A stretch of DNA of 28,464 bases from positions 1-28,464 of IMG/VR virus record IMGVR_UViG_3300021959_000292. One strand, given 5' to 3'. Shown piece after piece: positions 141 to 28,311 of this stretch; positions within the stretch are counted from its first letter, which is position 1; each line of letters opens with the position of its first letter. The notes under the pieces are model-generated. The model was given only the letters and a program-made list of their open reading frames with translations. It was not told where the DNA came from and made no database searches. The DNA is from a virus. The position numbers were made by a program, and so were the translations under genes.

Positions 141-183
141 GATCAAAATAATACTTGCACCAATATAGTATATTGGATAATAT
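141..183 (+). promoter_or_regulatory. Promoter with palindromic operator in the spacer (operator site 1)
   Basis: The -35 TTGCAC (155-160) and -10 TAATAT (178-183) are separated by exactly 17 bp. The perfect palindrome CCAATATAGTATATTGG (160-176) fills that spacer. A bound repressor would therefore sit between the two promoter elements. The upstream 18 bp (141-158), preceded by an A-tract, are identical to the sequence upstream of operator site 6 (15904-15921, opposite strand). It drives the 69-aa gene at 217. Confidence 0.8.
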
Positions 184-216
184 AAAAGGGAACCCAACAA
201 CAACAAAGGAAAAAAA

Positions 217-426
217 ATGTTCAAAGTACAAATCGAAAACCAAGACAAAAAAGTAATCATCGAATTCACCGCTGACACACTTGCAAACGCAAAGTCTCTT
301 GCTGAGGATCAAGTAAGCAAAGCACTTGCACAACTTGTAAACGTAACAAGCGCAACCGCTTTTGTATGGAATCTTGAGATTGGCGGCATTGACGCAATGC
401 TAGACGCTGACGGTTGGGATTACTAA
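217..426 (+). CDS. Small protein of unknown function, 69 aa
   Basis: The start is set by AAAGG eight to nine bases upstream of ATG, in the CAA-rich leader shared by the other operator-controlled genes. The product is small, acidic and predicted soluble, with an alternating hydrophobic pattern in its first half and a Trp- and Asp-rich C-terminus (DADGWDY). I do not recognise a family. It forms a single-gene transcription unit: an operator-bearing promoter lies 34 bp upstream and a strong terminator 22 bp downstream. That arrangement fits a tightly controlled early phage protein, for example a host-takeover or regulatory factor, but no function can be read from the sequence. Confidence 0.8.
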   Translation: MFKVQIENQDKKVIIEFTADTLANAKSLAEDQVSKALAQLVNVTSATAFVWNLEIGGIDAMLDADGWDY

Positions 427-447
427 TAACAACAAAACACGATACAC

Positions 448-474
448 AGGCCGCATTATGCGGCCTTTTTATTT
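448..474 (+). terminator. Rho-independent terminator
   Basis: A perfect 8-bp stem AGGCCGCA/TGCGGCCT with a TTA loop is followed by TTTTTATTT. It ends the 69-aa gene. The T-rich tail overlaps the stop codon of the convergent minus-strand gene at 469. On the minus strand the hairpin lacks a T-run, so it is probably one-directional. Confidence 0.85.
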
Positions 475-870
475 GCGCTTGAAAAACAAATCTGTACACT
501 TCTCAAGCGTATCACCCTCAAGATCACCGCATGCGGCCTGTATGCTTTTCGTATTGCTTATGTTGGCAATCTCGTTGCAATCACCTTGTGATGTTTGAGC
601 ATCGATCCCGCGTTGTTGCATGCGGCAAAATAGCTCTCTACACAATAGATCGCCTTGTGATTGCTCAACAATAAACAAAGGGCTACAAACGTCTTTTACG
701 AGGTCAAGATCCGTAAGTTGTTTTTGCACCTCAACTTGACCCTTTGCAACCTCGTCACCGCCAACGGCAACAATAACCGGATCCGGCTGTTTTGTGGCAA
801 GCTGTACACCCATCACGCCACCCGCACCCAACGCAACACCAACAACGGCCGCAATGATTATATCAACCAT
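469..870 (-). CDS. Membrane-anchored, cysteine-rich protein of unknown function, 133 aa
   Basis: The start ATG at 870 is chosen because AGGAGGT lies six bases upstream; a longer frame to 906 has no such site. Residues 3-24 form a glycine-rich hydrophobic segment (IIIAAVVGVALGAGG) that looks like an N-terminal membrane anchor. The rest is hydrophilic, with six cysteines in its second half (for example LLCRELFCRM), suggesting disulfides if exported. It is last in the portal operon and directly follows a 33-aa membrane peptide whose 3' end contains its ribosome-binding site. A spanin-like or superinfection-exclusion role is possible. No family was recognised. Confidence 0.75.
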   Translation of the reverse strand: MVDIIIAAVVGVALGAGGVMGVQLATKQPDPVIVAVGGDEVAKGQVEVQKQLTDLDLVKDVCSPLFIVEQSQGDLLCRELFCRMQQRGIDAQTSQGDCNEIANISNTKSIQAACGDLEGDTLEKCTDLFFKRK

Positions 871-874
871 CTTT

Positions 875-976
875 TTACCTCCTATCATGCAAAAGCCACA
901 CAACAAACTCCACCAACATAATCACGCACACAAGCACAATGATCCAATACTCCACAGGCAAGCCATACAAAAGCAT
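875..976 (-). CDS. 33-residue single-pass membrane peptide
   Basis: The ATG (974-976) follows the portal stop codon after one base, with TTGAGG seven to eight bases upstream inside the portal gene. The peptide has a strongly hydrophobic core (residues about 10-29, containing WIIVLVCVIML) and ends HDRR. The final AGG AGG codons double as the Shine-Dalgarno of the next gene, and the stop is four bases before that gene's start. This tight fit supports a real, translationally coupled gene. It could be a mini-holin or a regulatory membrane peptide; the function is unknown. Confidence 0.6.
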   Translation of the reverse strand: MLLYGLPVEYWIIVLVCVIMLVEFVVWLLHDRR

Positions 977-977
977 A

Positions 978-3809
978 TCAATCCTCAATAACAGGGATCA
1001 AGGTGCATCGACAATTTATATCCTCCGATGCAATCCCAAACGCTGCGGGGCTTTCCGTGCGATCGCCTGTACTTGGTACAACAAATTGATCATTGACGTT
1101 GACTACTTGACCGTCAAGCTCAACATGTGTATCACGCACTTTGTCATCACGCGATGACAGCCACTCTTTGCGGATGTTGATCCCGTTGTTTTGTGCTGAT
1201 GTATAGGCTTGATCCGTTGCCATATTCACGGCCTTTGTTGCCTCAGTGCGTGCAATAGTACGGGCACGCTCAGCACCAAATATCGAGCGTTGATCAATAC
1301 TCTTTGCAATCTCGTCAACACTATCACCATCTAACAAACCCGCCTCAATGATACGCTTGATTTTGTTCGCTGTGGATTGTGTTATCTGCATTGATGCAAG
1401 ATCATTGGCATTGACCGCAGCCTCACGCGATCCAAACACAAGATCAAGCGGCCGCGTTTTGCCCGCTCTTGCAAATACATCATCAAGTGCGTCATTCCCT
1501 GTGAGGCTCCACACGCCCAACCATTGCCGCCCCATTTGCCCTTGAAGTATACGCATTTCATCAGCCATCGCAAGCAATGACGACCAATCAACAACGGCCT
1601 TTGTAACCTGTGCGGATCCCGCAAATTTGCGGCTCACAACATAATCATTGATGCGGCTTTTGTATCTCTTGAGTGATTGCCTTAGATACGTATACACTGC
1701 ACGTTCAATGCTCTTTTCAGCGGGTTGCTGCACGCGTGTAACCCAACCTTGCCACATGTCAGATCGTTGCTTTTGTGCGTTGATCTTTTGCTTTTCTTTT
1801 TCGACAAGCTCTTTCATGTACGTTTGACCGCGATCACCAACAACAAACCACTTGATTTGTGCAACCGTGCCCGCAATGCGAAAATCTTGCAAGTGACGTG
1901 CCGCCCATGCCTCACGCTTGCGAATTGCCATCTCTTCGGTATCGGTCTTTGGTTCCTTATCAGCACGATCAACAATAGGCTTGAGCCGCCTGTATTGGTT
2001 ATTCCCTTCAATGTTGCCGCCTTTTTTCCATATCTGAGGCCAATTATCTTTCAAGTCTTGTGCATAGTCTGCATCAAATACCCTGTATTGCGTATTTTCA
2101 AGCGATACTTTGCGATCATCACCTTTTGCGGGAAAATTTGTTATTTCTTGCTTTTTGGTTTGCTTATCATCCTCAGCATTGGACAACGGATGATCCTCAG
2201 GCAATAAATCAGTATCATACGGGTTGCGTTTGTACTTGCCAGTACGCAACGCATACAACAAGCCATTGACGCGAGCCATTGCCCATTGAGCCGCACTTGA
2301 TACTGTTGGGCGTACGCTTGACGGGTTTGTTTCAAAGGCGGCCAAACCTCGCCAATATGACACAGCAAGATAATTGCTATTGGTTATCTTTTTTTTGGGA
2401 TTATTCCCGTACTCCTCATTATGATCAGCGGCTTTTTTTTTTAATCCCTTTTGGGTTGATTCGTTGAGTGCATCCATTGCCTCTTTTGCGTTGCTCTTGA
2501 GGCCGTAATTTGTTTCTTGCTTTTGGTTTTTACCTATTGCACGCAAGATCAATTCAAGGGCCCGCACGTTTTGACCTTCTTCATCTCCTATATCTTGAGC
2601 GGGTGTTTCTCGCTGATCCTGTGGTATGATTGGCGCATCTTCAAGGCCCTCATACATATACGCATCAGCGGCATCCATACCGTTAAGAATGTGCTTTGTT
2701 ACTCGGTCAAGCTGTGAATCACGTATTGTTTGCAACGCCTCAACGCCTGAATAATCGATCTCTACACGAAAAGTTGGATCAAACCGCTTTGCGATCTGCG
2801 TAAGAAGGAATGATAACCGCTTGCCTCTTTTGGTTTGCACCTCCCAGTAATTTTGAGCTTGTTGCCGTGATACTGCAAAGTTTGCACTGTTATCACCAAG
2901 TACTGATGGTGGCACGCCAAAAACCGCGCTAATCGCTTGCCTTGTGTAATCTCGAACCGCTTGAAACTCAAGATCACGCGGGCTGATCTGCAATGGTTCG
3001 ATCTTGACCTGACCACTAAGACACATTGCACCGCCCGAATTACTCATACCCCTATACGCGTCAAGTATAGATCGCCTTTGTTCATAATCCCAAATATCAG
3101 CCTCGTCAGCCGGTGTGATCAAAATATCAGGCCGGCCCTTTTTTGCGGCATCGCTTGCAAGTTTTTGTGCGGATATATCAGCCCCAATTTCACGCTGTAA
3201 AGGTTGTATACCCCCTACACCATACAAAGCATTTACACCGGCCCCCCATGATGCACTTTGAGCGTATACAACACGATCGATCGGATACTCAACAATGTTA
3301 CCACTATCCTCAAATTCAAAGCCCTTGATCCCCATTACAGTATCAGTGATGATTTTGGTTTGCTCAGGATGTAAACGAAACAAAGATGCGGGCACCTCTT
3401 GAGGCCCCGCAAGCAATACATAGCAACCGCCTGTGAGCATCAAGTCAACGATCAATTGCTCACGAAATGAATAACCATCAACGTACGTACTTGGTTGATC
3501 CATCAAATCTAGAAACGGATGATCGATCAAAATCTCTGAGTTTTCACCTTTGCCCCGTATGAGCTTGATCGGCAATGCGGCTAAATCTTGCGATGCTCTT
3601 GACACAGCCGCAAACACATAACCGTGCTGTGAGAACGCAGCCATAGAAACGCCCGCGGGGTACGGGTTTCTAACGCCTTGTGCCTTGTCCCAGTCTGCAC
3701 CATGTGCGGGCCGCTCAGGCTTTGCCACAGGCTTTGCAAACGCCTTTGTTATTGGTTCGATCAATCGCGTCCAAAATGACACAGGCTTTGCGGGTAAATC
3801 TTTACTCAT
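978..3809 (-). CDS. Portal protein fused to internal modules and a Mu gpF-like (MuF) domain, 943 aa
   Basis: The start at 3809 is chosen for GAGGTGAT five bases upstream. Residues 1 to about 400 resemble an HK97-type portal, the ring through which DNA enters the capsid. A typical block is EFQAVRDYTRQAISAVFGVP at 281-300, followed by a Gln/Tyr/Trp helix near 316-323. Residues about 845-943 match the Mu gpF-like head morphogenesis domain: ARTIARTE (849-856), KEWLSSRDDKVRDTH (881-895), LDGQ (898-901) and CRC (933-935). Between them are two modules I cannot assign firmly: 436-545 (SNYLAVSYWRGLAAFETNP, then YDTDLLPEDHP) and 575-670 (IWKKGGN, REAWAARH, GTVAQIKWFVVG). HK97-family portals are commonly 400-500 aa, so this is about twice normal size. 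A methyltransferase gene lies upstream and two membrane proteins downstream. Confidence 0.93.
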   Translation of the reverse strand: MSKDLPAKPVSFWTRLIEPITKAFAKPVAKPERPAHGADWDKAQGVRNPYPAGVSMAAFSQHGYVFAAVSRASQDLAALPIKLIRGKGENSEILIDHPFLDLMDQPSTYVDGYSFREQLIVDLMLTGGCYVLLAGPQEVPASLFRLHPEQTKIITDTVMGIKGFEFEDSGNIVEYPIDRVVYAQSASWGAGVNALYGVGGIQPLQREIGADISAQKLASDAAKKGRPDILITPADEADIWDYEQRRSILDAYRGMSNSGGAMCLSGQVKIEPLQISPRDLEFQAVRDYTRQAISAVFGVPPSVLGDNSANFAVSRQQAQNYWEVQTKRGKRLSFLLTQIAKRFDPTFRVEIDYSGVEALQTIRDSQLDRVTKHILNGMDAADAYMYEGLEDAPIIPQDQRETPAQDIGDEEGQNVRALELILRAIGKNQKQETNYGLKSNAKEAMDALNESTQKGLKKKAADHNEEYGNNPKKKITNSNYLAVSYWRGLAAFETNPSSVRPTVSSAAQWAMARVNGLLYALRTGKYKRNPYDTDLLPEDHPLSNAEDDKQTKKQEITNFPAKGDDRKVSLENTQYRVFDADYAQDLKDNWPQIWKKGGNIEGNNQYRRLKPIVDRADKEPKTDTEEMAIRKREAWAARHLQDFRIAGTVAQIKWFVVGDRGQTYMKELVEKEKQKINAQKQRSDMWQGWVTRVQQPAEKSIERAVYTYLRQSLKRYKSRINDYVVSRKFAGSAQVTKAVVDWSSLLAMADEMRILQGQMGRQWLGVWSLTGNDALDDVFARAGKTRPLDLVFGSREAAVNANDLASMQITQSTANKIKRIIEAGLLDGDSVDEIAKSIDQRSIFGAERARTIARTEATKAVNMATDQAYTSAQNNGINIRKEWLSSRDDKVRDTHVELDGQVVNVNDQFVVPSTGDRTESPAAFGIASEDINCRCTLIPVIED

Positions 3810-4545: not shown

Positions 4546-4950
4546 CTACTCGCCACACATCCACAGCCAACAATCAGCATTTTGATCAAGTTGGGTTTCT
4601 TTGCAATCGTTGGCAAGCTCTTGATAAAAGTTTGCCATTTCCTCAGCACTATCAGCCCAAAGATATTTTTTCATTCCATCAAAGTACTCAATACCTTTTT
4701 GTGATTTGTAAAAATCTGCACTGTGTTGAAATTTTGCAATGATACAAAAGTTTTCGTGATCGGCATCCATACGAGCCTCAAAGTTTTCTTTGCCTTCTCT
4801 ATGTACAACTATATTAAACTTGTTGTAACCGTGAAAATATTCTTCAAAGGATAGCACTTCTTTAATTGCCTTTGTTAGCTCTTTTGTGCTGTTGTACGTT
4901 CCTTCTTTGCTTATGTAACCTTCATTGAATTCTATTGTAAATGTAGTCAT
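4546..4950 (-). CDS. Unknown early protein, 134 aa
   Basis: The ATG at 4950 is preceded by AAAGGACAAACAAA and a CAA-rich leader, directly downstream of operator site 2. The product is acidic, rich in Glu, Phe, Tyr and Lys, and starts with a beta-strand-like FTIEFNEGYI followed by predicted helices. There is no signal peptide or membrane segment. I do not recognise a family. It is the first gene after its own operator-bearing promoter, with the C5 methyltransferase and portal genes downstream on the same strand. Confidence 0.8.
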   Translation of the reverse strand: MTTFTIEFNEGYISKEGTYNSTKELTKAIKEVLSFEEYFHGYNKFNIVVHREGKENFEARMDADHENFCIIAKFQHSADFYKSQKGIEYFDGMKKYLWADSAEEMANFYQELANDCKETQLDQNADCWLWMCGE

Positions 4951-4991
4951 TTTGTTTGTCCTTTGTTGTTGGGTTGTTGTTACTTACTCAA

Positions 4992-5030
4992 TCAATATAC
5001 TATGTTGGTAAGTAAAAGCAACCATATAAG
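4992..5030 (-). promoter_or_regulatory. Promoter with operator overlapping the -10 (operator site 2)
   Basis: On the minus strand a TTGCTT -35 is separated by 16 bp from TATATT. That -10 lies within the operator CCAACATAGTATATTGA (4992-5008), which departs from the consensus palindrome by a T-to-C change in one arm. The transcript begins with a CAA-rich leader leading to the 134-aa gene. Confidence 0.65.
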
Positions 5031-5045: not shown

Positions 5046-5339
5046 TTATTTTTGCTCTTTATTCACAAAGTATCGTTTGAGTGCATCCCTGTACTGTTTT
5101 TCGTTGTAATCAAACACGATCTTTATATCTCTTTGATCCAATGCGTGATCATCGACGATTGCCGCAAAGAGCATATCAACCTCATAATCATTGGTATGTT
5201 TCTTGTAGTCCTCAATCAAGTTGCCCAATGTGTTCTGTACACCTACGATCTGAATATGCAGCCGCAAAAGCCTATTGCGGCCCTCAGATAGTTTGCTCAC
5301 AAGGGATACAATTTTTTTTTCGATGTTCTCAACGGTCAT
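5046..5339 (-). CDS. Unknown helical protein, 97 aa
   Basis: The start overlaps the stop of the upstream methyltransferase gene by four bases (ATGA), a sign of translational coupling. The sequence is largely helical and amphipathic (residues 1-45, then DYEVDMLFAAIVDDHALDQ), without cysteines, signal peptide or membrane segment. Coupling to the methyltransferase suggests an accessory subunit or a protein needed in fixed ratio to it, but this is inference and no family is recognised. Confidence 0.75.
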   Translation of the reverse strand: MTVENIEKKIVSLVSKLSEGRNRLLRLHIQIVGVQNTLGNLIEDYKKHTNDYEVDMLFAAIVDDHALDQRDIKIVFDYNEKQYRDALKRYFVNKEQK

Positions 5340-6610
5340 GATTGATCCCCAAATAGTGATAGCTGTGCATTTTCAAGTTTGTATTGTTTACGGGCCTCCT
5401 CAATACGCCCATCGATGATTGGCAAGTATTCCGGTGTAAGTTCCATGCCAACAAAATTAAAGCCTTCAAGAAGTGCAGCCGCACCCGTTGTGCCGCTACC
5501 CGTAAAAGGATCAAGTATCACCGATCCCTTTTGCCCGCCAATCAATCGACAACACCAACGCATGAGCTTGATCGGCTTGACAGTCGGATGTATGTTGCGA
5601 ACCTCGTTTGCGGTTCGACCGGCACCCGCTCTTGGATTGTTCAAACCAACTGATCCCTCTATACGGTGTACCGCCTCAAAGCCTTTTGTTGTTTCCAAAT
5701 GATCAAGCCCTTCCTCACGCTCAGATCTTGAGGCTTTGGCGCATTGATAAAGGTTTGCGGGCCAACGGCCTTGATTATTCTCAACAAAATTACCGCTTGT
5801 TTCATCACTTATTTGCAATGAAAAAGGCGATCCTGTTTTTGTTAATCTTGATCCTGTCAACTCTTGAGGCCCTACCCAACAAGGATCACCATACCCAAAA
5901 CGACACGCATCTATATTGAGCGCACCCGTGCCATGTTTCAATACATTTTGTGCAATCGTCAAACCCTTTTCAAGCGGCTTGCGAAGTAACAAAGCGGGTT
6001 CAACTGCGGGCTTGAGAGCCGTGCCAAACCCCGCCCATTTTTGCGCGTCTTGTGTTGCGGGTTTTGTGATGTCTTTATGTGTTGCACCTCCAAACTTCCC
6101 TTTTTCGTTTTGGTTAAAGCACGAATTAGCCACATCTTTCCTGCCCTCACGACCAAAAACCTGAACACGATCAACAACCTCACGCACCGCCCCCGCCTCA
6201 CGATCGATCGCTTTGCTTATATCGTGCGACTTTGGAAATCCTGAGAAGTAACACCAATGTATCATATCACGTATCACAAACCCGCCCTGTTGTGCAGCCA
6301 TACCCAACGCAGAAACGGTACGCGTTGAGCTAAAGGCTATCATGTGCCCGCCATGTTTCAAGACACGCAAACACTCAGCAAAGAAGTTGTGACAAGGCAC
6401 GGCCGCATCCCAATCCTTGCCCATAAAGCCCTTGATGTTTTTGCCCTCTTCGATGTCAGCCCATGTGCGGGCAATGCCATCAGCTGACATGCCATAGGGC
6501 GGATCTGTGCAAATTGCATCAATGCTGTTGTCAGGAAATGTCTTGAGGAGTTGCATGCAATCGCCATGCAATATTTTTGTTGTTGGTATATCATCCCAAT
6601 TATCGATCAT
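5336..6610 (-). CDS. Beta-class DNA amino-methyltransferase (N6-adenine or N4-cytosine), 424 aa
   Basis: The catalytic motif DPPYG (36-40) lies near the N-terminus and the AdoMet-binding motif DPFTGSGTTG (367-376) near the C-terminus. This order defines beta-class enzymes such as CcrM-like N6-adenine and several N4-cytosine methyltransferases. HPTVKP (341-346) is the usual flanking motif. The long middle section (about 130-330) probably contains the target-recognition domain. The start at 6610 is fixed by AGGA eight bases upstream. No restriction partner is present, so it is an orphan that probably protects phage DNA or modulates expression. The specificity cannot be read; because the genome is GATC-rich, GATC is one site worth testing. 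Confidence 0.92.
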   Translation of the reverse strand: MIDNWDDIPTTKILHGDCMQLLKTFPDNSIDAICTDPPYGMSADGIARTWADIEEGKNIKGFMGKDWDAAVPCHNFFAECLRVLKHGGHMIAFSSTRTVSALGMAAQQGGFVIRDMIHWCYFSGFPKSHDISKAIDREAGAVREVVDRVQVFGREGRKDVANSCFNQNEKGKFGGATHKDITKPATQDAQKWAGFGTALKPAVEPALLLRKPLEKGLTIAQNVLKHGTGALNIDACRFGYGDPCWVGPQELTGSRLTKTGSPFSLQISDETSGNFVENNQGRWPANLYQCAKASRSEREEGLDHLETTKGFEAVHRIEGSVGLNNPRAGAGRTANEVRNIHPTVKPIKLMRWCCRLIGGQKGSVILDPFTGSGTTGAAALLEGFNFVGMELTPEYLPIIDGRIEEARKQYKLENAQLSLFGDQS

Positions 6611-6628: not shown

Positions 6629-6781
6629 TTATTTGTTGATCTTTCTGTATACTTCACACATTAGATCAATAGCCTGTTGTAGTTTTAGACGATCCTCAAG
6701 TGTCATACTTTTTGAATCACGTACATCAAAAGTGTTTTTTATAGCTTGATCAAGTGTGTTTATTTTTTGTTTCTTTGTCAT
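6629..6781 (-). CDS. Small unknown protein, 50 aa
   Basis: The frame runs from a tandem start (ATGACAATG, 6779-6787) to TAA at 6629. The second ATG sits eight bases from AGGA, the standard spacing here, so it is preferred over the first at 6787. The peptide is basic at the N-terminus (MTKKQK) and then helical (LEDRLKLQQAIDLMCEVYRKI). It uses the shared CAA-rich leader and lies 18 bp upstream of the methyltransferase gene. Function is unknown. Confidence 0.7.
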   Translation of the reverse strand: MTKKQKINTLDQAIKNTFDVRDSKSMTLEDRLKLQQAIDLMCEVYRKINK

Positions 6782-6830
6782 TGTCATTGTCCTTTGTTGT
6801 GCCCCTTGCGGGGCGGGTGTTGTTGGTTGA

Positions 6831-7007
6831 TTAATTGCTAAATAGCTTTTCTTTTGGTTCTATTGATAGATTTTTGTTGTTGAATCGATCTTTGACTTCA
6901 AATGTGTATGCTATTTTATGAAATTGTAGATTGTACATTCTATGTATAAATTCAAATTCATTATCGTATTGTTCGTGTGTATGTGCAGTTTTGATAATAT
7001 ATGTCAT
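6831..7007 (-). CDS. Small unknown protein, 58 aa
   Basis: The start is a tandem ATGACAATG; the second ATG (7005-7007) is eight bases from AGGA and is preferred. The product begins MTYIIKTAHTHEQYDNEFEF and ends with Lys/Asn-rich sequence. It is predicted soluble and not recognised. It is the first gene of the unit driven by the promoter with the longest operator palindrome (site 3). Confidence 0.72.
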   Translation of the reverse strand: MTYIIKTAHTHEQYDNEFEFIHRMYNLQFHKIAYTFEVKDRFNNKNLSIEPKEKLFSN

Positions 7008-7030: not shown

Positions 7031-7066
7031 GCTTTATCAATATACTATATTGATAAAGCATTGCAA
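7031..7066 (-). promoter_or_regulatory. Promoter with 29-bp perfect palindrome (operator site 3)
   Basis: On the minus strand TTGCAA (7061-7066), a 16-bp spacer and TATATT (7039-7044) form a good sigma70-type promoter. The operator core (7037-7053) covers the -10. The symmetry extends perfectly to 7031-7059, with 14-base arms (left arm GCTTTATCAATATA) around one central base. This is the strongest operator in the window. It controls the methyltransferase unit. Confidence 0.82.
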
Positions 7067-8530: not shown

Positions 8531-8857
8531 TCAAAACTCAATCAAGGTGTTAGAAAGTAGCTTGTACAACTCTTTGCGGGGCTTTTCGATCAACGGCTCA
8601 AAATATGTTGCAATGGGCCAAAGGCTATATTTTCCGGCCTGATGACCTTGCACCCACTTGTTGGCGGTCTTTATCTTTACTGCGGCACGCTTTGCAAGAT
8701 CGCGGGCACAGTATTGATCGCCCGCCTTATCAATCCAAGATAACAAAAGATTTTGAAATGCAAGGTTTTTGCGGCATACATACACACGCCCACTTTTTGC
8801 AACTCTTACTTTTGGCGGTGTCGATACAACAAGATCCTGATTGAATTGCCGCCTCAT
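8531..8857 (-). CDS. HTH-like DNA-binding protein, 108 aa
   Basis: The central region (about 50-75: ARDLAKRAAVKIKTANKWVQG) reads as a helix-turn-helix with a recognition helix near KTANKWVQG. The start overlaps the previous gene's stop by four bases (ATGA), and its own stop is two bases before terL. Because it directly precedes terL it could be a small terminase subunit. The 141-aa HTH protein at 9665 is a better match for that role, so this one may be a regulator or a terminase accessory factor. Confidence 0.7.
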   Translation of the reverse strand: MRRQFNQDLVVSTPPKVRVAKSGRVYVCRKNLAFQNLLLSWIDKAGDQYCARDLAKRAAVKIKTANKWVQGHQAGKYSLWPIATYFEPLIEKPRKELYKLLSNTLIEF

Positions 8858-9664: not shown

Positions 9665-10090
9665 TTATTGTTCATCTAGATCGATTGTTGGGCCATCGAT
9701 CACGGCCTGTATTTCGGTTTTGTACTCGCTTATCAGTGTTTGCACGTCAACATTTTCAGCATCAATGGTGATCTGCACAGGGGGCGGGCCGTCTTTGACG
9801 TACCCATGACACCTTTCAAGGAGCCATGCGGCCGCTTGCCATTGCTCACTGCTTGCATTGCGTATGACTTGCAACAACTGATGTGATCCTTTGGTGCGGG
9901 CTTGTTCAAGTTTGCGATAAAATGATCGGTATGGTTGCCGCCCCTCTTTTGCAAAGTTGATCCATCGATACAAAGTACTTGGATCAATACCGGCAAAATA
10001 TGCACATTGATCGCGGGTGTGTCCTTTACTTGCAGCCTCAAGCAAACGAGCAACGATCTGATCATTGAGTATCTTTGCGGGTTGAGCCAT
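9665..10090 (-). CDS. terS: Probable terminase small subunit, 141 aa
   Basis: The N-terminal helix-turn-helix (26-46: RDQCAYFAGIDPSTLYRWINF) resembles the DNA-recognition domain of small terminases. It is followed by a helical oligomerisation-like segment (EQWQAAAWLLERCHGYVK) and an acidic tail (IDLDEQ). The start overlaps the upstream stop as TAATG, with AAGGGG nine bases upstream. In the family this protein recognises the packaging site and loads TerL. Two genes lie between it and terL here, which is less usual. The alternative is a transcriptional regulator. Confidence 0.75.
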   Translation of the reverse strand: MAQPAKILNDQIVARLLEAASKGHTRDQCAYFAGIDPSTLYRWINFAKEGRQPYRSFYRKLEQARTKGSHQLLQVIRNASSEQWQAAAWLLERCHGYVKDGPPPVQITIDAENVDVQTLISEYKTEIQAVIDGPTIDLDEQ

Positions 10091-10272
10091 TATTTCAGCC
10101 CCTTTGCACACAATCTGCGTATATATTCGCCAGCTGTGATGCCGTTTTTAGCGGCTCTTTTTCGTATCCTGACAAGCATATCATGAGGAAATACAACGCT
10201 CAAAACAGGTGATTTTTGTCTTTTTGTATAGGCATCACCGCCCGCGTTTAGTATGTTTTTGTTTTGTTTCAT
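10090..10272 (-). CDS. Ribbon-helix-helix DNA-binding protein, 60 aa
   Basis: Residues about 23-58 (LSVVFPHDMLVRIRKRAAKNG, then ITAGEYIRRLCAKGLK) fit a ribbon-helix-helix fold of the CopG/Arc type: one beta strand and two helices, acting as a dimer. The basic N-terminus (MKQNKN, YTKRQK) would contact DNA. The start is set by AAAGGATC seven bases upstream. Its stop is fused to the terS start (TAATG). It is one of two tiny RHH proteins in the window and a candidate ligand for the repeated palindromic operators; this is inference. Confidence 0.8.
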   Translation of the reverse strand: MKQNKNILNAGGDAYTKRQKSPVLSVVFPHDMLVRIRKRAAKNGITAGEYIRRLCAKGLK

Positions 10273-10287: not shown

Positions 10288-10746
10288 TTATTGTGGGGGT
10301 AATTCTTCGCGTGCGGTCATACCGATCCCCGTATACAATCGCAAAGCTCTTGCATATGCTCTTGTTTCAGCCATACGGATAAAAGCACTTTGTACCATCT
10401 TGCCCGTGTTCTCAGGTGTACTGTCACCGTATGCGGTAAACGTGCCGCGTGTGCCCGTTATGGTTGCCTCAATCACTGCATATTGCTCAACCATTGAGTA
10501 ATCGATCAACTTGCTTGTCATACTTTCAAGGCCGTTACGATGTGCAAGATCCAACAAGCCCGCGAACAAAACAAACTCTTTGCCCTTGAGGTTTACGATC
10601 TGATCATTGGCACGCAATAGATCGATCTGTGTTGGCGTGTGTAGGTCACAAGTATAAAAGTGTTTGCCCGCATGTATTACCGTATTTGTTGCGATCTCAT
10701 TGCACTTGCAACATGGTTTTTTTTCGTTTGTCTTGATGATCCGCAT
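10288..10746 (-). CDS. Conserved phage protein with zinc-knuckle N-terminus, 152 aa
   Basis: The start at 10746 follows GGAGGTGAG inside the preceding gene, and the two genes overlap as TAATG. The N-terminus has a CxxC...CxxH arrangement (C12, C15, C33, H36), probably a zinc site. The rest (NLKGKEFVLFAGLLDLAHRNG; TRGTFTAYGDSTPEN; RMAETRAYARALRLYTGIG) looks like a family of conserved phage proteins that I recall near recombination and replication genes. I cannot assign a biochemical role. A single-strand annealing or ssDNA-handling function would fit but is unproven. Confidence 0.75.
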   Translation of the reverse strand: MRIIKTNEKKPCCKCNEIATNTVIHAGKHFYTCDLHTPTQIDLLRANDQIVNLKGKEFVLFAGLLDLAHRNGLESMTSKLIDYSMVEQYAVIEATITGTRGTFTAYGDSTPENTGKMVQSAFIRMAETRAYARALRLYTGIGMTAREELPPQ

Positions 10747-10871
10747 TACTCACCTCCATCATCAAGGTGCTGCTGATACATTGCATCGATGTCTTCATCA
10801 GTAATGGGCTTCTTTGCAAATGCTTCATCAAGAAATTCTATAAGCTCTTTTTGTTCGTTTTCGTTTGTCAT
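10746..10871 (-). CDS. Small acidic protein, 41 aa
   Basis: A tandem ATGACAATG start (10869-10877) with AGGA eight bases from the second ATG opens a short acidic frame (ELIEFLDEAFAKK, then DEDIDAMYQQHLDDGGE). It ends in TAA overlapping the next gene's ATG. It is the first gene after operator site 4, and its end supplies the next gene's ribosome-binding site. Function is unknown. Confidence 0.7.
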   Translation of the reverse strand: MTNENEQKELIEFLDEAFAKKPITDEDIDAMYQQHLDDGGE

Positions 10872-10904
10872 TGTCATTGTCCTTTTTTGTTGTTGTTGTC
10901 TCAA

Positions 10905-10936
10905 TCAATATAACATGTTGAAAAGACTTTGTACAA
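10905..10936 (-). promoter_or_regulatory. Promoter with operator variant (operator site 4)
   Basis: On the minus strand TTGTAC (10931-10936), 17 bp and TTATAT (10908-10913) form a promoter overlapped by TCAACATGTTATATTGA (10905-10921). This departs from the consensus mainly in the centre and one arm. It lies just downstream of the terminator at 10934-10994 and starts the unit that runs through terS and terL. Confidence 0.65.
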
Positions 10937-10994
10937 AAAAACAAAAAAAAGATTGTACGGGCAAGGACAAGACAACAACAAAACCCGTACAATC
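10934..10994 (-). terminator. Rho-independent terminator of the replication operon
   Basis: Perfect 11-bp arms GATTGTACGGG (10951-10961) and CCCGTACAATC (10984-10994) enclose a 22-base loop. On the minus strand the stem is followed by eight T, a G and seven T. It ends the leftward unit that carries the replication initiator and the 49-aa RHH gene. Confidence 0.85.
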
Positions 10995-11006
10995 AAAAAA
11001 GTGATA

Positions 11007-11156
11007 TCACGGCATTAAGCGATCCGCAATACAACGCTTGATATATCGATCAAGCAAATCATCAATACTTAGCTTGTATCTTTTCGCTATTTTTTCCAGT
11101 TGCTCATATTGCACATCATTGAGATTGATCCGCACACGGGTTTGCTTATTTGGCAT
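11007..11156 (-). CDS. Ribbon-helix-helix DNA-binding protein, 49 aa
   Basis: The short frame reads a beta strand (TRVRINLND) and two helices (QYEQLEKIAKRYK and IDDLLDRYIKRCI), the full ribbon-helix-helix layout at near-minimal size. It overlaps the end of the upstream gene by 11 bases in another frame and has no clear Shine-Dalgarno, so translation probably depends on coupling. A strong terminator follows 13 bp downstream. RHH dimers usually repress promoters of their own unit. This one may bind the operator palindromes or regulate replication. Confidence 0.72.
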   Translation of the reverse strand: MPNKQTRVRINLNDVQYEQLEKIAKRYKLSIDDLLDRYIKRCIADRLMP

Positions 11157-11454
11157 TTTTTTGTAATCGTATTTTTTTGGCATATGTAAGATCCTCGACT
11201 AGTTCCTTGATTGATTTTTTTTGTCCTTGTGGCTGTATATCCACAATAACACCTTTACGCTCTTGCTCACGTTGATCGATCAACTGCTGTGATGGTGTCA
11301 GCTGATCGATCCTCGTTATCTCATGTGTACGGCCCAACATAGGCACGGACAAGCGGCACCGCACTTGGTGCCCGTTTATTTCTGCGATGTAGCCAACAAC
11401 AGGCGGCCGCATCCATCCAACACTAAAAATTACTTTGTCGTTTATTTTGTACAT
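11146..11454 (-). CDS. SH3/KOW-like small protein, 102 aa
   Basis: The start follows AAGGGG by six bases. Residues 1-55 alternate strands and turns (INDKVIFSVGWMRPPVVGYIAEINGHQVRCRL), like an SH3- or KOW-type barrel, followed by a charged helical C-terminus (QREQERK, SIKELVEDLTYAKKIR). It lies directly after the replication initiator gene and overlaps the RHH gene. It could be a replication accessory or nucleic-acid-binding protein; no family is assigned. Confidence 0.7.
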   Translation of the reverse strand: MYKINDKVIFSVGWMRPPVVGYIAEINGHQVRCRLSVPMLGRTHEITRIDQLTPSQQLIDQREQERKGVIVDIQPQGQKKSIKELVEDLTYAKKIRLQKNAK

Positions 11455-11464: not shown

Positions 11465-12490
11465 TTATATCACTGCACAATCAATGAGAGCGGCAAAATC
11501 CACAAGGTTTGGATCGGCCTGTATCTCATTTCGTAAATCATCAGTCAAACCGCCATCACGCACCCAATCAAAAACAACATTTGCACATTGCTCATAATCT
11601 TCTGCATTTGCCCTAAATCCGGCCCAAAGACTTTGAGCCTTTCCGTTGCCGTTCATCGCGGCCGCCTGTGCTTTGTCTGCACTGTCAACCGCTTGCAATG
11701 CTTGTGTTTTTATTTCTTCGATAATCTCAGGATCAATGCTCAAAGTACTCAATCGCATTTTGTTGTGGTCGTATTTTGTGGGATCTTGATCCGCCTCTTT
11801 GCTTACCCATCTTTCTTTTATCTTTGATGCCCAACCTCTACCAACATACATGCCTTGTATATTTCTCTCAGCGATGAAATGATCAAGCTTACACACAGCC
11901 TTTGCAACTTGCACTATTGACGCACCCGCCTTGATAGCATCAAAGTCTTTTTGTACGTCGATAGAAACCCAACCTTGCACGGTTGCATGCTTTGCCCATA
12001 GCTCACCCAACCAAAGATCACGCACATCAACATCATCACTGATGTATGGTTTGCTTTTTTTCGTATTGTCCGTACTCTCTTTAATTGGATCTATTTCTTT
12101 TATCTCTTTACTGTTTCTACTTAGGGGATCATTTTCGATCCCCCTACGGCTTAGAAATGATCCCCCATCGGATCGTTTTTGATCCTCAACAGGCTTAGAA
12201 ATGATCCCCTTTGGCTTAGAAATGATCCCCCCTACATCATAGATATTTGATGATGTACGTTTTGTGCTTTTGAGATTGATCGCACCCTTTTCTCGTAGCT
12301 CTTTGAGGCCCCGTTTGATGCTGCCAAGGGATAGCCCTGTATTTTCGGCAAGCGTGCCTTTTGATGGATATGCTTGCCCATCAATACCCGCAAAAAATCG
12401 CATTTCGATAAGTATCAAGATCGCGGCTTTACTCATTTGCTGCATTGCGGCCGCATCGCTTTTGGTTATTTTTATAAATATGTCGGTCAT
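11465..12490 (-). CDS. Replication initiator-like winged-helix protein, 341 aa
   Basis: The start at 12490 is chosen for AAGGG six bases upstream in the shared leader; the longer frame to 12556 crosses operator site 5. Residues about 20-85 form a winged helix (SKAAILILIEMRFF; GTLAENTGLSLGSIKRGLKELREKGAI) of the type seen in phage lambda O-like and RepA-like initiators. Residues 87-125 are encoded by an array of DNA repeats, probably the origin. The C-terminal half (150-341) is helical and acidic and may recruit host replication proteins. No helicase or helicase-loader gene is visible in the window. Confidence 0.78.
   Translation of the reverse strand: MTDIFIKITKSDAAAMQQMSKAAILILIEMRFFAGIDGQAYPSKGTLAENTGLSLGSIKRGLKELREKGAINLKSTKRTSSNIYDVGGIISKPKGIISKPVEDQKRSDGGSFLSRRGIENDPLSRNSKEIKEIDPIKESTDNTKKSKPYISDDVDVRDLWLGELWAKHATVQGWVSIDVQKDFDAIKAGASIVQVAKAVCKLDHFIAERNIQGMYVGRGWASKIKERWVSKEADQDPTKYDHNKMRLSTLSIDPEIIEEIKTQALQAVDSADKAQAAAMNGNGKAQSLWAGFRANAEDYEQCANVVFDWVRDGGLTDDLRNEIQADPNLVDFAALIDCAVI
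12126..12230. repeat. Five 18-bp iterons, probable replication origin
   Basis: Three identical copies of GGCTTAGAAATGATCCCC start at 12148, 12192 and 12213. Two degenerate copies sharing GG, T and the GATCC core start at 12126 and 12170. Spacings are 22, 22, 22 and 21 bp, two helical turns. The 22-bp spacing moves the repeat between reading frames (GIISKP twice, then GGSFLSR), so the DNA rather than the protein is conserved. To the left (about 12056-12125) is an A+T-rich stretch with strong purine/pyrimidine strand bias. The layout is like lambda ori within gene O. Confidence 0.8.
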
Positions 12491-12512
12491 TTTTTGCCCT
12501 TTGTTGTTGGTT

Positions 12513-12545
12513 GTTGTTGTCTCCATCAATATAACATAATGCACA
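12513..12545. promoter_or_regulatory. Divergent promoter region with operator variant (operator site 5)
   Basis: TCAATATAACATAATGC (12526-12542) matches one arm of the operator consensus. On the minus strand a TTGTCC -35, 16-bp spacer and TTATAT could drive the replication gene through a CAA-rich leader. On the plus strand CATAAT could be the -10 for the exonuclease gene, whose leader would be very short. A repressor bound here could control both directions. Confidence 0.5.
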
Positions 12546-12559: not shown

Positions 12560-13165
12560 ATGTATGTAGTATTAGACACAGAAACAACAGGGCTTTATGC
12601 AAATCGACATGAAATGATCGCATATTGTGGTATCAAACTTGACAAAAACCTCAATGAAATTGGGCGGCTACACATCAAAATCAAGCCGATCAATATATCA
12701 CAGGCCGATCCCGATGCCTTAAAGATCAACGGATATACGCAAAACAAATGGAGTAATGCAAAGGAACCAAAAGAGGCCGCTCACCTTATCGCAAATTTCA
12801 TGCGTGATTGTGTACCGGTTGCCCACAATTGGCCTTTTGATCGTGGCTTTATACTTGCACATCTCAGCAAGTATGCACACGGCCGCAAAATCTTGAGGCG
12901 GGGCATTGATACTGTATCTCTTGCAAGTGCGGTTCTTTTGCCGATGGGCTACAAGTCCGTATCAATGCAATCAATAGCAAATATTTTTGATTGGCCCACA
13001 CAAACACATGAAGCACTTGATGATACTTTGTATTGTGTGCAGTTATTCCGGCTCTTGTACCCCTACAACGCACGCAATGTGATCAAGGTGCGTGCATTGC
13101 TATACTGTGCTAAGATAGGCATGTATATCAATCCAATGCGGGGCAAACATGGGCCTAAATCTTGA
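12560..13165 (+). CDS. DnaQ-like DEDDh 3'-5' exonuclease, 201 aa
   Basis: The exonuclease motifs are present in order: DTETTG (6-11; D6, E8), HNWPFD (89-94; D94) and HEALDD (150-155; H150, D154). This gives a complete DEDDh catalytic set, as in DNA polymerase III epsilon. The start at 12560 follows AAAGGAC by five bases. The enzyme may proofread or trim DNA ends during phage replication. It is divergent from the replication initiator but cotranscribed with tail-fibre genes; its last codons overlap the next gene by 17 bases. Confidence 0.93.
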   Translation: MYVVLDTETTGLYANRHEMIAYCGIKLDKNLNEIGRLHIKIKPINISQADPDALKINGYTQNKWSNAKEPKEAAHLIANFMRDCVPVAHNWPFDRGFILAHLSKYAHGRKILRRGIDTVSLASAVLLPMGYKSVSMQSIANIFDWPTQTHEALDDTLYCVQLFRLLYPYNARNVIKVRALLYCAKIGMYINPMRGKHGPKS

Positions 13166-15487: not shown

Positions 15488-15829
15488 TTAGATTATACCG
15501 TGAACACCATACCCTAATTGAGAATATAATATATCATCATCAATATATACATGATCAGTTCTATTAAGTGAAATGAGTATATCTGAGATAATTTTTTTGA
15601 GTTGATTACGTTGTGCCTTTTTTTTGCAATTGTACTCTTTATCAAAGCATGTAAAGTTGTTGTCATTGTCAAGCTCAATAAATGCGATTTTTACAACATA
15701 TCCCTCAGTGGAAATATCACACAATCTAATTGTAGAATTATCAAGCTTAAAAAAAGGAAAGTATTGCTTATAATTTTTGTGTATTGCAAAAGAAATATTT
15801 TTTTGTATTCTTTGATCTAATCGTGTCAT
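15488..15829 (-). CDS. Unknown early protein, 113 aa
   Basis: The ATG at 15829 follows AAAGGACAAACAAA and a CAA-rich leader. The product is rich in Ile, Asp, Lys and Asn with a basic N-terminus (MTRLDQRIQKN) and mixed strands and helices. It has no membrane segment and no recognised family. It forms its own unit between operator site 6 and a terminator, the same layout as the 69-aa gene at 217. It is therefore probably an early, repressor-controlled accessory gene. Confidence 0.78.
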   Translation of the reverse strand: MTRLDQRIQKNISFAIHKNYKQYFPFFKLDNSTIRLCDISTEGYVVKIAFIELDNDNNFTCFDKEYNCKKKAQRNQLKKIISDILISLNRTDHVYIDDDILYSQLGYGVHGII

Positions 15830-15878: not shown

Positions 15879-15921
15879 ACTATACCAATATACTATATTG
15901 ATAGCAAGTATTATTTTGATC
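15879..15921 (-). promoter_or_regulatory. Promoter with operator in the spacer (operator site 6)
   Basis: On the minus strand TTGCTA (15902-15907), exactly 17 bp and TATAGT (15879-15884) form the promoter. The spacer is the operator TCAATATAGTATATTGG (15885-15901). An 18-bp upstream block at 15904-15921 is identical to that of site 1. Confidence 0.8.
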
Positions 15922-24923: not shown

Positions 24924-25538
24924 TCACAAAAGCTGACGTGATTCACGAAATGGAGCAAGGATCTCTTTTATCTCAGGCGGCATGTTCTTTGCACTTATTG
25001 AGATTGTTGCCGCTCTTTGTGTGATACTGTCTTTGCCTTGTGTTGCTTTGTTTCTGTGCAGTTGTGAGGCCCATACACAGATCCCATGTTCAAGATCGGC
25101 CGGTAATGTGCTATTTGCGAAACCCGCCTCACAAACTACCTTTATCGCCCTGTATCCCCTTTCAAAAATATCAGTTGCGACAATCGGATCCATAATCACA
25201 CGCCCCTCATATTGATCAAGTGTGTATTCAGTTGAATCAATAAGCGTATCAGATCCATATTGTCGATCAATGTCGCTGTGTATCGACGTGATCGACTGCA
25301 CGGGCCGCATTGGTATTTGCAAAACCTGTGGATCCTCGTATGTTGGGCCATCAAGAAAAAACTCATAGGTAGCTGACAACATACGAGGTGACGCAAGATT
25401 TTTGGGCTTACGCCAACCCATATAGCGAGCGGTTGCCGCTTCCACACGATCAAGCAAACTTTCAAGATCAGTATTGGCATTGTTGCCTGTAATCTCAGGT
25501 AAGTATTGCTTTAGTGTGGAAACGGTAACCATTGCCAT
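24924..25538 (-). CDS. Head-tail connector protein (gp6-like), 204 aa
   Basis: The N-terminus (VSTLKQYLPEITGNNANTDLESLLDRVEAATARYMGW) has the helical layout of phage DNA-packaging/head-tail adaptor proteins. The middle (YEDPQVLQIPMRPVQSITSIH; YTLDQYEGRVIM) contains the inserted strands of that family. The C-terminal part is helical again. It lies two genes after the capsid protein. An alternative ATG two codons downstream exists; no strong Shine-Dalgarno is visible, so coupling to the upstream gene is likely. Confidence 0.82.
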   Translation of the reverse strand: MAMVTVSTLKQYLPEITGNNANTDLESLLDRVEAATARYMGWRKPKNLASPRMLSATYEFFLDGPTYEDPQVLQIPMRPVQSITSIHSDIDRQYGSDTLIDSTEYTLDQYEGRVIMDPIVATDIFERGYRAIKVVCEAGFANSTLPADLEHGICVWASQLHRNKATQGKDSITQRAATISISAKNMPPEIKEILAPFRESRQLL

Positions 25539-25540
25539 TG

Positions 25541-25906
25541 TTACACGCTACGTGCAACATCAAAGACAAGAACAAACTCAACGTCAACAGTTGCACCGGC
25601 TCCGGCATGAGTCTTGACAATCTTTAGTGATTCAAGAGCATCAAAATCAAGATCGGGGCTATCGGTCAAAGTCAAACTTTCAGCCGTTCCCGCAGTTAGT
25701 GCGTCACTTGATGTGTTGCGCACTGCAAGAGATGTGCTTCCATTTGACAAAGTCAAGATAGCATAGTCTACTCCATTGGCCGCAGTCGTAGCATTTGCAA
25801 CAACCAAGACCTCAACAAGCTTGAGTTTTCGATAGATTGGCATGTATCGTGTTTCATCTGTCCCCGCTGTGGCGGCTACAAGGTGTTTTGATAGTACTTT
25901 TTGCAT
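25541..25906 (-). CDS. Probable capsid decoration or head-associated protein, 121 aa
   Basis: The start at 25906 is fixed by AAGGGGATC upstream; the longer frame overlaps the capsid gene. The product is beta-rich, high in Thr, Ala, Val and Asp (VEVLVVANATTAANG; DYAILTLSNGSTSLAV; TVDVEFVLVFDVARSV) and lacks membrane or signal segments. A small beta protein directly downstream of the major capsid gene is often a decoration or stabilisation protein, but no family is recognised. Confidence 0.68.
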   Translation of the reverse strand: MQKVLSKHLVAATAGTDETRYMPIYRKLKLVEVLVVANATTAANGVDYAILTLSNGSTSLAVRNTSSDALTAGTAESLTLTDSPDLDFDALESLKIVKTHAGAGATVDVEFVLVFDVARSV

Positions 25907-25916
25907 TGTGATCCCC

Positions 25917-27395
25917 TTAAGAAATTGCCATGTTGTAACCAAACGCAACATTTTTGGTTGCATCTAGATCAAGTGTGTCAAAAGTTGCGCGCATTGTTGC
26001 AACGATATCAGTGCCGCCAACATCAATCTTGCGATCAGTCTCCACAAGGATCCCGCGTCGTTCAAAGATTGTCCATGATGGAGCGTGTGCCATCAAAAGA
26101 CCTGTTTTGTTGGTAACAAGATTGTTATAAATACCGCTTGCGTTCATGTCAGCTGATAAGAATCGTGACATGATGATCGGCATGCCCATGATTGCAGCGA
26201 TTTGACCTGTGCGCACGGTTGCTTGTGGCCCAAATACATCAATCGTCTTTACTTCGGTGAGACTCAGAAGGTTTGCGAGTACGGCCTCAGGTGATGCAAA
26301 CAAAACAACGTCTTGCATTGCCAACTCACCCATTTGAGCTTTAAGACCCAAAAGAGCAGCAAAATTGAACGTTCCAAGATCCGCACTTGAGTTGCGGGCA
26401 AAGGCTTGTTTACGCATACCCTTGAACATTCTACGATGATCGCTTGACCCACCAAGTGAGGGGCTACCAGTACCCCAACGCCCACGAATATTCCAATCAG
26501 CGATCGTATCTTGATGTGTTGCACTATCATCACCATTGATTAAAGCATCTTCCATTGCATCATTAAGATCAGATACAATTTGACGTTGCAATGAAGGAAT
26601 CACTGCGATTGCACTATCCTCAGCGGCCGCGTCATCAATGATGAAACGTGAGGCAAGCCCTTTGATTGTGATGCTCTTTTGTGAGGTTGTCACGGTGCTT
26701 GCTTGATATTGTGCGGGGTTGTCGTTTTGGATACTGCCCTTAAGGTATGGGCGGCCGCCACGATTCATGCGGGGCACAATTATTGTGTTTCTATCAACGG
26801 CTTGCTTTTGAAGGTTGTCAGCAACAACGCGGGGCAATTGGCTTTGATCTTCGATGTTGTAATACAGGTTAGCGGCAAATTGATCGGGGATCCATTCAGC
26901 ACCAACGCCCGCACTATCATTGAAAGCCTTTTGTACAAGAGGTTGCATGAATCTTGGAGCTTTTTGCATATGCTTCCAAAGATTAAGATCGCTCTTTGGT
27001 GTATGCGGGTTGCTCATTACCATACGTGCAAGTGTACGTTCTTTGTTGATCTTGAGTAGATCGGCATGCCATTGATTGACCGGCTGATCGGTATCAAGCA
27101 AACCTTTTTGCTCAACACGTACAGTGCCACGACCCGCGATCTGTATATCTTTGTTTTGTGTTTTCCAACGGATCCCGTTTTCATTCACAAATGATTTTAG
27201 TGCATAATCGGGAGCATTGAGATGATCGTCTTTTGCAACTGGTTGTGCTGATGCCTCTTGGATCAAACGCTGTGCGCGCTTGAGATCACCAAGTTGCTTT
27301 TCAAACTGAGATAGCTTTTCAGTCGATGTTTTTTGATGAGTTTTGATCCCCTCAAGGATCGCTTTTGCCTCATTGACAAGTGTTTTATCACTCAT
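25917..27395 (-). CDS. Major capsid protein (HK97 fold), 492 aa
   Basis: The start follows AGGAG by six bases. Residues 1 to about 100 are helical and charged (TLVNEAKAILEGIKTHQKTS; LSQFEKQLGDLKRAQRL), the delta/scaffold domain of HK97-type capsid proteins that is usually cleaved by the prohead protease. The remainder has the expected pattern, including GLASRFIIDDAAAEDSAIAV and VRTGQIAAIMGMPIIMSRFL with the typical G-x-P near the end. The protease gene is immediately upstream. Confidence 0.93.
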   Translation of the reverse strand: MSDKTLVNEAKAILEGIKTHQKTSTEKLSQFEKQLGDLKRAQRLIQEASAQPVAKDDHLNAPDYALKSFVNENGIRWKTQNKDIQIAGRGTVRVEQKGLLDTDQPVNQWHADLLKINKERTLARMVMSNPHTPKSDLNLWKHMQKAPRFMQPLVQKAFNDSAGVGAEWIPDQFAANLYYNIEDQSQLPRVVADNLQKQAVDRNTIIVPRMNRGGRPYLKGSIQNDNPAQYQASTVTTSQKSITIKGLASRFIIDDAAAEDSAIAVIPSLQRQIVSDLNDAMEDALINGDDSATHQDTIADWNIRGRWGTGSPSLGGSSDHRRMFKGMRKQAFARNSSADLGTFNFAALLGLKAQMGELAMQDVVLFASPEAVLANLLSLTEVKTIDVFGPQATVRTGQIAAIMGMPIIMSRFLSADMNASGIYNNLVTNKTGLLMAHAPSWTIFERRGILVETDRKIDVGGTDIVATMRATFDTLDLDATKNVAFGYNMAIS

Positions 27396-27404
27396 GTGTT
27401 ACTC

Positions 27405-28181
27405 CTAATTGGATAAAAGAGCAGCTAAAAAATTGCGCTCTTGTGGGGTTAAAAAGTCTTTCTCTTTGTCCTTATCTTTGTCTTCATCCTCATTCATATA
27501 GCCGCGATCATCCTCATTGGGATCAACGTCTTCATTATCAGGATCGATCATGTCCTCCTCAAAGGTATCATCATCAGGATCAATGGCCGCCTCTACATCA
27601 TCGGGCATATCATGGCGTGCATATGTTACAACAACAACATCATCACGCATCTCAACATCAATGATGTGCTTGAGGTTTGATATTTTAAAAGATCGGTTTT
27701 GCATATTGTATCCTTTTGCGGCAACCGCATCACCGTTGGCGGGTATTGTCACGATTGAGATTTCTAATAATTCGGCTTTGTCAAAGTATTGCCCGCTATG
27801 ACCGTGTGCGGGGTGTGCCTTTTCAAGTGTTGATCTTGGTGTACTATTGATCGGATTAAACCCAACGCTAACCGCATTGAGAAAGCCCGCCTTTGTTTTG
27901 CGTGCAACCTCTTTGGCCTGTGGATCATCCATATCAAACTCAACATCAACCATAAGCTGACCATCGACAACATCAACAACGCCTTTACCTATGGGCAAAC
28001 TGTTGGCATTGTGATTGAGAAGGATCACGGGGTTTTGTTTGTACTTCGATAGATCCCAACCGCCTTGATTGATCACGTCACCATATCGATCCGCGTTTGC
28101 TGTGGATGCCACAAAAGACACTAGATCGCCCTTTGATGCACCTTCACGCAGTATTTCACATTGTAGGTTTCTTATATACAT
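27405..28181 (-). CDS. Prohead protease (HK97-type serine protease) with acidic tail, 258 aa
   Basis: The start at 28181 is set by AGAGG five bases upstream. Catalytic candidates in order are His57 (ILLNHNANSLPIGKG), Ser105 (FLNAVSVGFNP) and Glu140 (LLEISIVTIPAN), the HK97 prohead protease pattern. It matures the capsid by cleaving the delta domain. Residues 194-243 form an extremely acidic tail (DPDDDTFEEDM; EDEDKDKDKEKD) followed by LTPQERNFLAALL, which could act as a scaffold or capsid-docking segment. It is first in the late operon. Confidence 0.9.
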   Translation of the reverse strand: MYIRNLQCEILREGASKGDLVSFVASTANADRYGDVINQGGWDLSKYKQNPVILLNHNANSLPIGKGVVDVVDGQLMVDVEFDMDDPQAKEVARKTKAGFLNAVSVGFNPINSTPRSTLEKAHPAHGHSGQYFDKAELLEISIVTIPANGDAVAAKGYNMQNRSFKISNLKHIIDVEMRDDVVVVTYARHDMPDDVEAAIDPDDDTFEEDMIDPDNEDVDPNEDDRGYMNEDEDKDKDKEKDFLTPQERNFLAALLSN

Positions 28182-28227
28182 AAATACCTCTATATGTGTA
28201 TATACATCATTGTACACCTAATTGCAA

Positions 28228-28255
28228 TATATACAAGAATTACAAGTATTTGCAA
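28228..28255 (-). promoter_or_regulatory. Likely promoter of the late head-tail-lysis operon
   Basis: On the minus strand TTGCAA (28250-28255), 16 bp and TATATA (28228-28233) resemble the other promoters in the window, but no operator palindrome overlaps it. The leader to the protease gene is about 40 bases and has a conventional AGAGG site rather than the CAA-rich leader. Confidence 0.5.
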
Positions 28256-28261
28256 ATAATC

Positions 28262-28311
28262 GAAAAAAGATAAAAATAATGTTTGACTCATAAACCAATA
28301 TACTATATTGT
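28262..28311 (+). promoter_or_regulatory. Rightward promoter with operator (operator site 7)
   Basis: A GAAAAAAGATAAAAATAAT block like that of sites 1 and 6 precedes TTGACT (28283-28288). The operator CCAATATACTATATTGT (28295-28311) overlaps the probable -10 (TATTGT at 17-bp spacing, or TATATT at 15). It drives the partial gene at 28359. Confidence 0.68.

Follow-up and report, generated by a model that had tools for sequence, protein, structure and literature searches.

Seven short palindromes dispersed around the genome of an uncultured phage are predicted to be the operators of one phage-encoded repressor, a 60-aa Arc-like ribbon-helix-helix protein that we call RHH2. We give this reading, in which DNA binding and repression by RHH2 are deduced from sequence, a probability of slightly above three in four. 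The observations that underlie it are the sites themselves, their positions in promoters, their conservation in syntenic slots of related phages, their co-variation with RHH2, and the Arc-like sequence and fold of this protein. The DNA analyzed, referred to here as the window, is the whole IMG/VR record IMGVR_UViG_3300021959_000292, which is 28,464 bp long.

Seven palindromes and their promoters

The first-pass annotation of the window listed 17-bp palindromes at positions 160, 4992, 7037, 10905, 12526, 15885 and 28295, and all seven are present there (operators 1 to 7). They were described as always lying upstream of a gene start, and we found a start codon 18-57 nt downstream of each. Three of them had been credited with perfect CAATATA/TATATTG arms; the correct number is four (160, 7037, 15885 and 28295). 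The right arms of operators 4 and 5 are degenerate. When the whole record was scanned allowing up to 3 mismatches over 16 scored positions, the seven 17-mers alone matched, and none of these is inside a gene or away from a promoter. The sole match with 4 mismatches in the record is a register slide within operator 7, and a reversed control pattern had no matches in the record. Using a 15-bp core with up to 2 mismatches, we observed 7 matches compared to 0.21 expected per 28.5 kb under a Markov-1 null. All seven operators are intergenic, and the non-coding share of the record is 8.4%; the chance of such placement is approximately 3e-8 (0.084^7), assuming that sites are placed independently. The ends of the contig are bridged by a record from the same sample series, L009, which is identical over 181 and 5808 bases and yields a closed genome of about 28.9 kb. 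There is no eighth operator in the missing 455 bp supplied by L009 (minimum 5 mismatches), so the closed genome contains exactly seven operators and these are the full set.

Scoring of -35 and -10 elements confirmed the two promoter geometries that had been annotated. In the first, the operator is the 17-bp spacer between the -35 and the -10 (to within 1 bp at operator 1). Operator 1 (CCAATATAGTATATTGG; 160..176, plus strand) fills the spacer between TTGCAC and TAATAT and drives an orphan gene at 217-426, and operator 6 (15885..15901, minus strand), which has perfect arms, fills the spacer between TTGCTA and TATAGT and drives an orphan gene at 15488-15829. In the second geometry, found at operators 2, 3, 4 and 7, the -10 (TATATT or TATTGT) is inside the operator. 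Operator 2 (4992..5008, minus strand) has one arm mismatch, contains TATATT and drives 4546-4950. Operator 3 (7037..7053, minus strand) is a perfect 17-bp palindrome with 6831-7007, 6629-6787, a methyltransferase gene (5336-6610) and 5046-5339 as its targets. Operator 4 (10905..10921, minus strand), with its variant arm, is at the promoter of an operon comprising 10746-10877, 10288-10746, RHH2, TerS and TerL. Operator 7 (28295..28311, plus strand; perfect arms) drives a plus-strand gene that starts at 28359 and continues in L009. Operators 1, 6 and 7 have a common upstream block that ends in the -35 (AAAAAAGAT..AAAATAAT..TTG). Operator 5 (12526..12542), to which no strand is assigned, is located between the divergent genes for rep (11465-12490, minus strand) and a dnaQ-like exonuclease (12560-13165, plus strand), with -10-like hexamers in both directions; its degenerate arm form is kept in relatives.

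The window encodes two RHH proteins. RHH2 (10090..10272, minus strand) has the predicted contact strand SPVLSVVFP. RHH1 (11007..11183, minus strand), with the strand TRVRINL, is the last gene ahead of a terminator hairpin (GATTGTACGGG...CCCGTACAATC followed by a T run; 10945..10996, minus strand) that separates the RHH1 and RHH2 operons. Hairpins resembling this terminator are kept in relatives with the same class of operator as the window (class I, below).

Operator classes and the RHH2 strand among relatives

A TerL search found about 35 related loci in a first round, and a profile raised this number to 92. Among cultured phages, TerL identity was approximately 30% at best and there was no DNA match. 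We read 13 records of relatives, all of them metagenome contigs of 17-31 kb (ten are 25-31 kb), and found them to be syntenic and circularly permuted. Nearly all 13 have a dispersed, class-specific operator set in six common slots: terL/mtase, mtase/portal, g13848/g15942, prot27405/g469, rep/dnaQ, and the operon running from RHH1 to RHH2. One or two clear operator sites are visible in each of G013 and G006. TerL relatives at 50-62% showed no clear dispersed palindrome set, and an operator-like signal in L196 was rejected as a tandem repeat. Dispersed operator sets are therefore conserved among the relatives, and the first-pass proposal of a regulon whose operators are dispersed and lie at promoters in two geometries is supported, repression being a prediction.

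We distinguished five operator classes among these phages. One class is used throughout each phage genome, and a matrix of operator counts by class and genome is largely diagonal. Class I operators are CAATATA-N-TATATTG and occur with the RHH2 strand SP(V/T/L)LSVVFP; class II operators are CATTATA-N-TATAATC and occur with SPALPVVFP; class IV operators are CAAGGTA-N-TACCTTG and occur with MISIKIP, IFSIKVP or LISIKMP, the RHH2 of the class IV genome G007 being partly masked by N. The palindromes of classes III and V are imperfect, and these two classes were defined partly by eye: class III is CATTATAAGTGAATG-like and occurs with SPRITTVMP, and class V, which G006 fits weakly, contains TATGTTATTATAT and occurs with SPMVNLV(M/V)P.

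Operator class thus tracks the DNA-contact strand of RHH2, and it does not track RHH1, the helix-turn-helix (HTH) protein beside TerL, or the TerL phylogeny. We read RHH2 as the protein that recognizes the operators because operator sequence and RHH2 strand change together between phages. This match cannot be due to physical linkage with RHH2, given that the operators are spread around the whole genome. Since the relatives are nested by descent, the number of independent operator switches behind this co-variation is small (about five or six), and no meaningful p-value can be attached to it. The co-variation leads us to predict that an RHH2 dimer would bind DNA via a β-ribbon. A prediction of this pairing was tested with L318, a record retrieved by its class IV operator only. 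It encodes an RHH2 with LISIKMP, which is the predicted Ser-x-Lys pattern, alongside an RHH1 of the shared type. The IMG/VR scans with class II and class IV patterns that gave L318 returned mostly single chance sites among the matches listed.

The best PDB sequence match of RHH2 in an hmmsearch was the Arc MYL mutant (1b28, E 0.0013); matches to Pfam NikA-like and PHROG transcriptional repressor profiles were weak or below the curated cut-off. An AF2 model contains helices at residues 30-42 and 47-59 with pLDDT block means of 89-96, and the top Foldseek matches were P22 Arc, NikA and CopG (probability approximately 1, every E 0.07 or more). Because the monomer does not form the strand and all Foldseek E values are above 0.05, the fold call rests on probability, TM-score and the profile match. 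RHH2 is Arc-type in having profile similarity to Arc/RHH proteins and a strand, unformed in the AF2 monomer, followed by two helices. The repressor had been suggested to be one of the two RHH proteins or the product of a gene outside the window; by these lines of evidence RHH2 fits the first suggestion and RHH1 does not.

Predicted role of RHH2 and competing readings

We propose that an RHH2 dimer, or a pair of dimers, would insert a two-stranded β-ribbon into the palindrome. With the operator either filling the spacer or overlapping the -10, RHH2 bound there would exclude RNA polymerase from the promoter. RHH2 is predicted to target its own terminase-carrying operon, where the variant operator 4 implies autoregulation, together with the divergent rep/exonuclease pair and the short accessory cassettes. 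On infection, the operator promoters (cassettes, rep and exonuclease) would fire first. RHH2 would then build up with the terminase operon and shut off both the early promoters and its own, making the circuit self-limiting, and the head operon, which has no operator, would escape. The strand residues of the resident RHH2 would determine the operator class of each phage. We consider such a programme of early cassette, rep and exonuclease expression followed by shut-off likely, with binding, repression and timing all predicted.

Most genes that follow an operator are small and variable and lack annotation. The gene at 6831-7007 is found in G003, 91% identical, in a different slot. One cassette gene is 86% protein-identical in G003 (class I) and G007 (class IV), and upstream of it, at the same aligned position, is CAATATACTATATTG in G003 and CAAGGTATTACCTTG in G007. 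The same cassette has the class-matching operator in each genome, and thus its operator appears to correspond to the RHH2 of that genome. A second cross-class pair (G007 26214 and G008 334) could not be used for a DNA comparison, as its homology is internal. These cassettes raise the idea of a swappable address system in which the operator tag of a cassette must match the resident RHH2 through a near-modular β-strand code. Ser versus Pro/Thr at Arc position 11 would correspond to CAA versus CAT, Val versus Lys at Arc position 13 would correspond to TA versus GG, and competition during co-infection would maintain the diversity of classes as heteroimmunity without lysogeny. Taken jointly, these proposals are tentative and the odds are against the full set.

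RHH2 could also be a lysogeny or immunity repressor of a prophage or plasmid-prophage, with early shut-off as a secondary role. The five operator classes within one phage group resemble immunity groups, the dispersed operators of a single master repressor keep lysogeny in SPbeta (PMC10516654), and dispersed operators give immunity in Cluster A phages (PMC6550527). However, there is no tyrosine integrase in 16 records and no serine recombinase (resolvase) in 12 records, and ParB-like domains occur in just 3 of 89 accessory proteins. A search for a prophage or host via TerL in 84,980 genomes gave a single match of 24% identity, and co-transcription with terminase sets RHH2 apart from a typical prophage repressor. 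We regard this alternative as unlikely and, since integrase and resolvase were not found, favour early-gene shut-off over lysogeny.

It is considerably less probable that RHH1 reads the operators, even though it is an RHH protein kept in all near-complete relatives and is encoded in an operon controlled by operator 5. The RHH1 strand is (D/E)KI(K/R)IYLG in classes IV and V alike. The operators of these two classes differ completely, so a near-identical strand cannot account for them. The relative L120 is also discordant with a role for RHH1. Its RHH1 and HTH proteins belong to the class IV/V type and its TerL is outside the clade of classes I, II and III (100/100), yet it has three CAATATA-type operators in three slots and an RHH2 with the strand SPTLSVVFP. 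We take L120 to be a natural recombinant in which RHH2 alone fits the operator class. RHH1 was rejected as the specificity determinant based on L120 and the strand likeness between classes IV and V. Two HTH candidates were also rejected: the HTH-like protein adjoining TerL (8531..8857, minus strand), which is absent in class II and of the IV/V form in L120, and a cI-like HTH_3 repressor, none of which was above cut-off in class I genomes.

A palindrome with an embedded TATATT could instead be a preferred promoter sequence read by RNA polymerase or a sigma factor rather than by a repressor, and the operator does supply the -10 wherever the two overlap. Across relatives, the -10 is inside the operator in 25 of 30 class I placements scored (one site counted in two registers). 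For class IV, the operator falls within the spacer in 9 of 10 placements, and no clear promoter accompanies some of the matches in G005. The difference in geometry is understandable, as CAATATA-N-TATATTG can supply a -10 and CAAGGTA-N-TACCTTG cannot. The class IV operators sit wholly in the spacer without a -10, the two geometries differ by about 8 bp in where the operator lies relative to the -35, and two-fold symmetry survives class switches that alter both arms together, all of which make a promoter-sequence explanation very improbable. The two placements across classes argue that the operator is a separate element and not the promoter consensus itself; it appears to be superimposed on promoters in two ways. 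A host-encoded regulator whose sites were copied by the phage, with classes reflecting different hosts, is just as hard to credit, given that residues of a phage protein change along with the operator class, with Lys found where the operator has GG, and that L318 was correctly predicted.

The elements that are new in our reading, with RHH2 as the repressor, are the putative RHH reader and the presence of at least five operator classes within one phage group. A likely regulator and transcription programme can be assigned to an uncultured phage group that has no characterized member. The group also provides a natural RHH series with at least five matched operators, with which simple binding assays could link strand residues to DNA bases. 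To our knowledge, natural specificity series are far fewer for β-ribbon than for helix-turn-helix recognition. Should co-infecting phages be silenced by RHH2 as well, phages that lack an integrase would show an immunity-like grouping.

Comparison with known systems

P22 Arc (PDB 1par, 1b28) is the best sequence and fold match of RHH2, and SPVLSVVFP of RHH2 aligns with MPQFNLRWP of Arc. Arc is a small phage repressor that binds over a promoter, as we predict for RHH2, and it controls the ant/arc promoter region. By contrast, the phages described here have a genome-wide set of sites and at least five operator codes among related phages. The phiC31 system has a similar layout, in which one phage repressor binds inverted repeats of about 17 bp at many early promoters, but unlike RHH2 the phiC31 repressor is not known to be an RHH protein. 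In the open-access literature searched, we found no earlier case of a phage RHH repressor whose operators are dispersed.

The first-pass annotation had compared the sites to L5-type immunity or stoperator networks. L5 stoperators are asymmetric sites, up to about 30 in number, that block elongation; most are located off promoters, and they are oriented with transcription (PMC6550527). The seven sites in the window are instead palindromic or near-palindromic and all on promoters, and the best candidate for their reader is an RHH protein rather than an HTH-containing immunity repressor, so this analogy is loose. The parts of it that stand are the dispersal of sites and their co-divergence with the repressor among relatives; in Cluster A phages, site motifs and repressors diverge together and repressors prefer cognate sites (PMC6550527). 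The arrangement here, one repeated site at several promoters across a phage genome, is that of a dispersed-operator regulon.

The closest functional parallel, closer than L5 stoperators, is probably MrpR (YopR) of the Bacillus phage SPbeta, a master regulator with a tyrosine-recombinase fold that maintains lysogeny through a 15-bp motif, the SPBRE (PMC10516654). The SPBRE occurs in about ten scattered promoter regions, mostly of unknown genes, and was identified in silico at a time when the protein was not yet known (PMC10516654). Our candidate differs from MrpR in being a 60-aa Arc-like RHH protein, in occurring where no integrase was found, and in having an operator class that varies between relatives. 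What the two systems would have in common is one phage regulator acting through a repeated short element at dispersed promoters.

Genome ends and distant relatives

The two ends of the window (1 and 28464) are joined by a contig from the same sample series (IMGVR_UViG_3300021957_006290), which bridges them via 455 bp. Thus, the phage genome is circular or circularly permuted and approximately 28.9 kb long. The more distant relatives L169, L181, L189, and L225, with terminases (TerL) 55-60% identical, encode a different short ribbon-helix-helix protein (KHKAICISMNQKSIKQL...KSRIVRDAI), and no obvious dispersed palindrome set was found in these records.

Operator-driven transcripts and a cassette gene

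An A/C-rich leader, ACAACAACAAAGGACAA...ATG, was observed in the window at 4950-4990, 10877-10905, and 12490-12525 and in relatives. It is kept in all operator classes and is a putative translation leader common to operator-driven transcripts. The small cassette gene at 6831-7007 matches a gene of the related phage G003 (L144; 17344-17520) at 91%. Both phages are of class I, the syntenic slot of the gene differs between them, and a class I operator accompanies both copies.

Repeats at the head operon and within rep

Repeated TTCTTGCAATT / TTCTTGTAATT-like units lie upstream of the head operon (protease/capsid; 28217-28290, minus strand), where they precede a TGTATATA-like -10. Both elements are present in many relatives as well as in the window. 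These repeats are a possible late-activator site, and the conserved ribbon-helix-helix protein RHH1 is perhaps their reader.

The replication-initiator gene rep (11465-12490, minus strand) contains three repeats of about GGCTTAGAAATGATCCCC at 12126-12231. The related phages G004, G005, and G006 have other repeats, unlike these, at a similar place. The repeats inside rep possibly mark an origin located within the initiator gene, as in lambda O.
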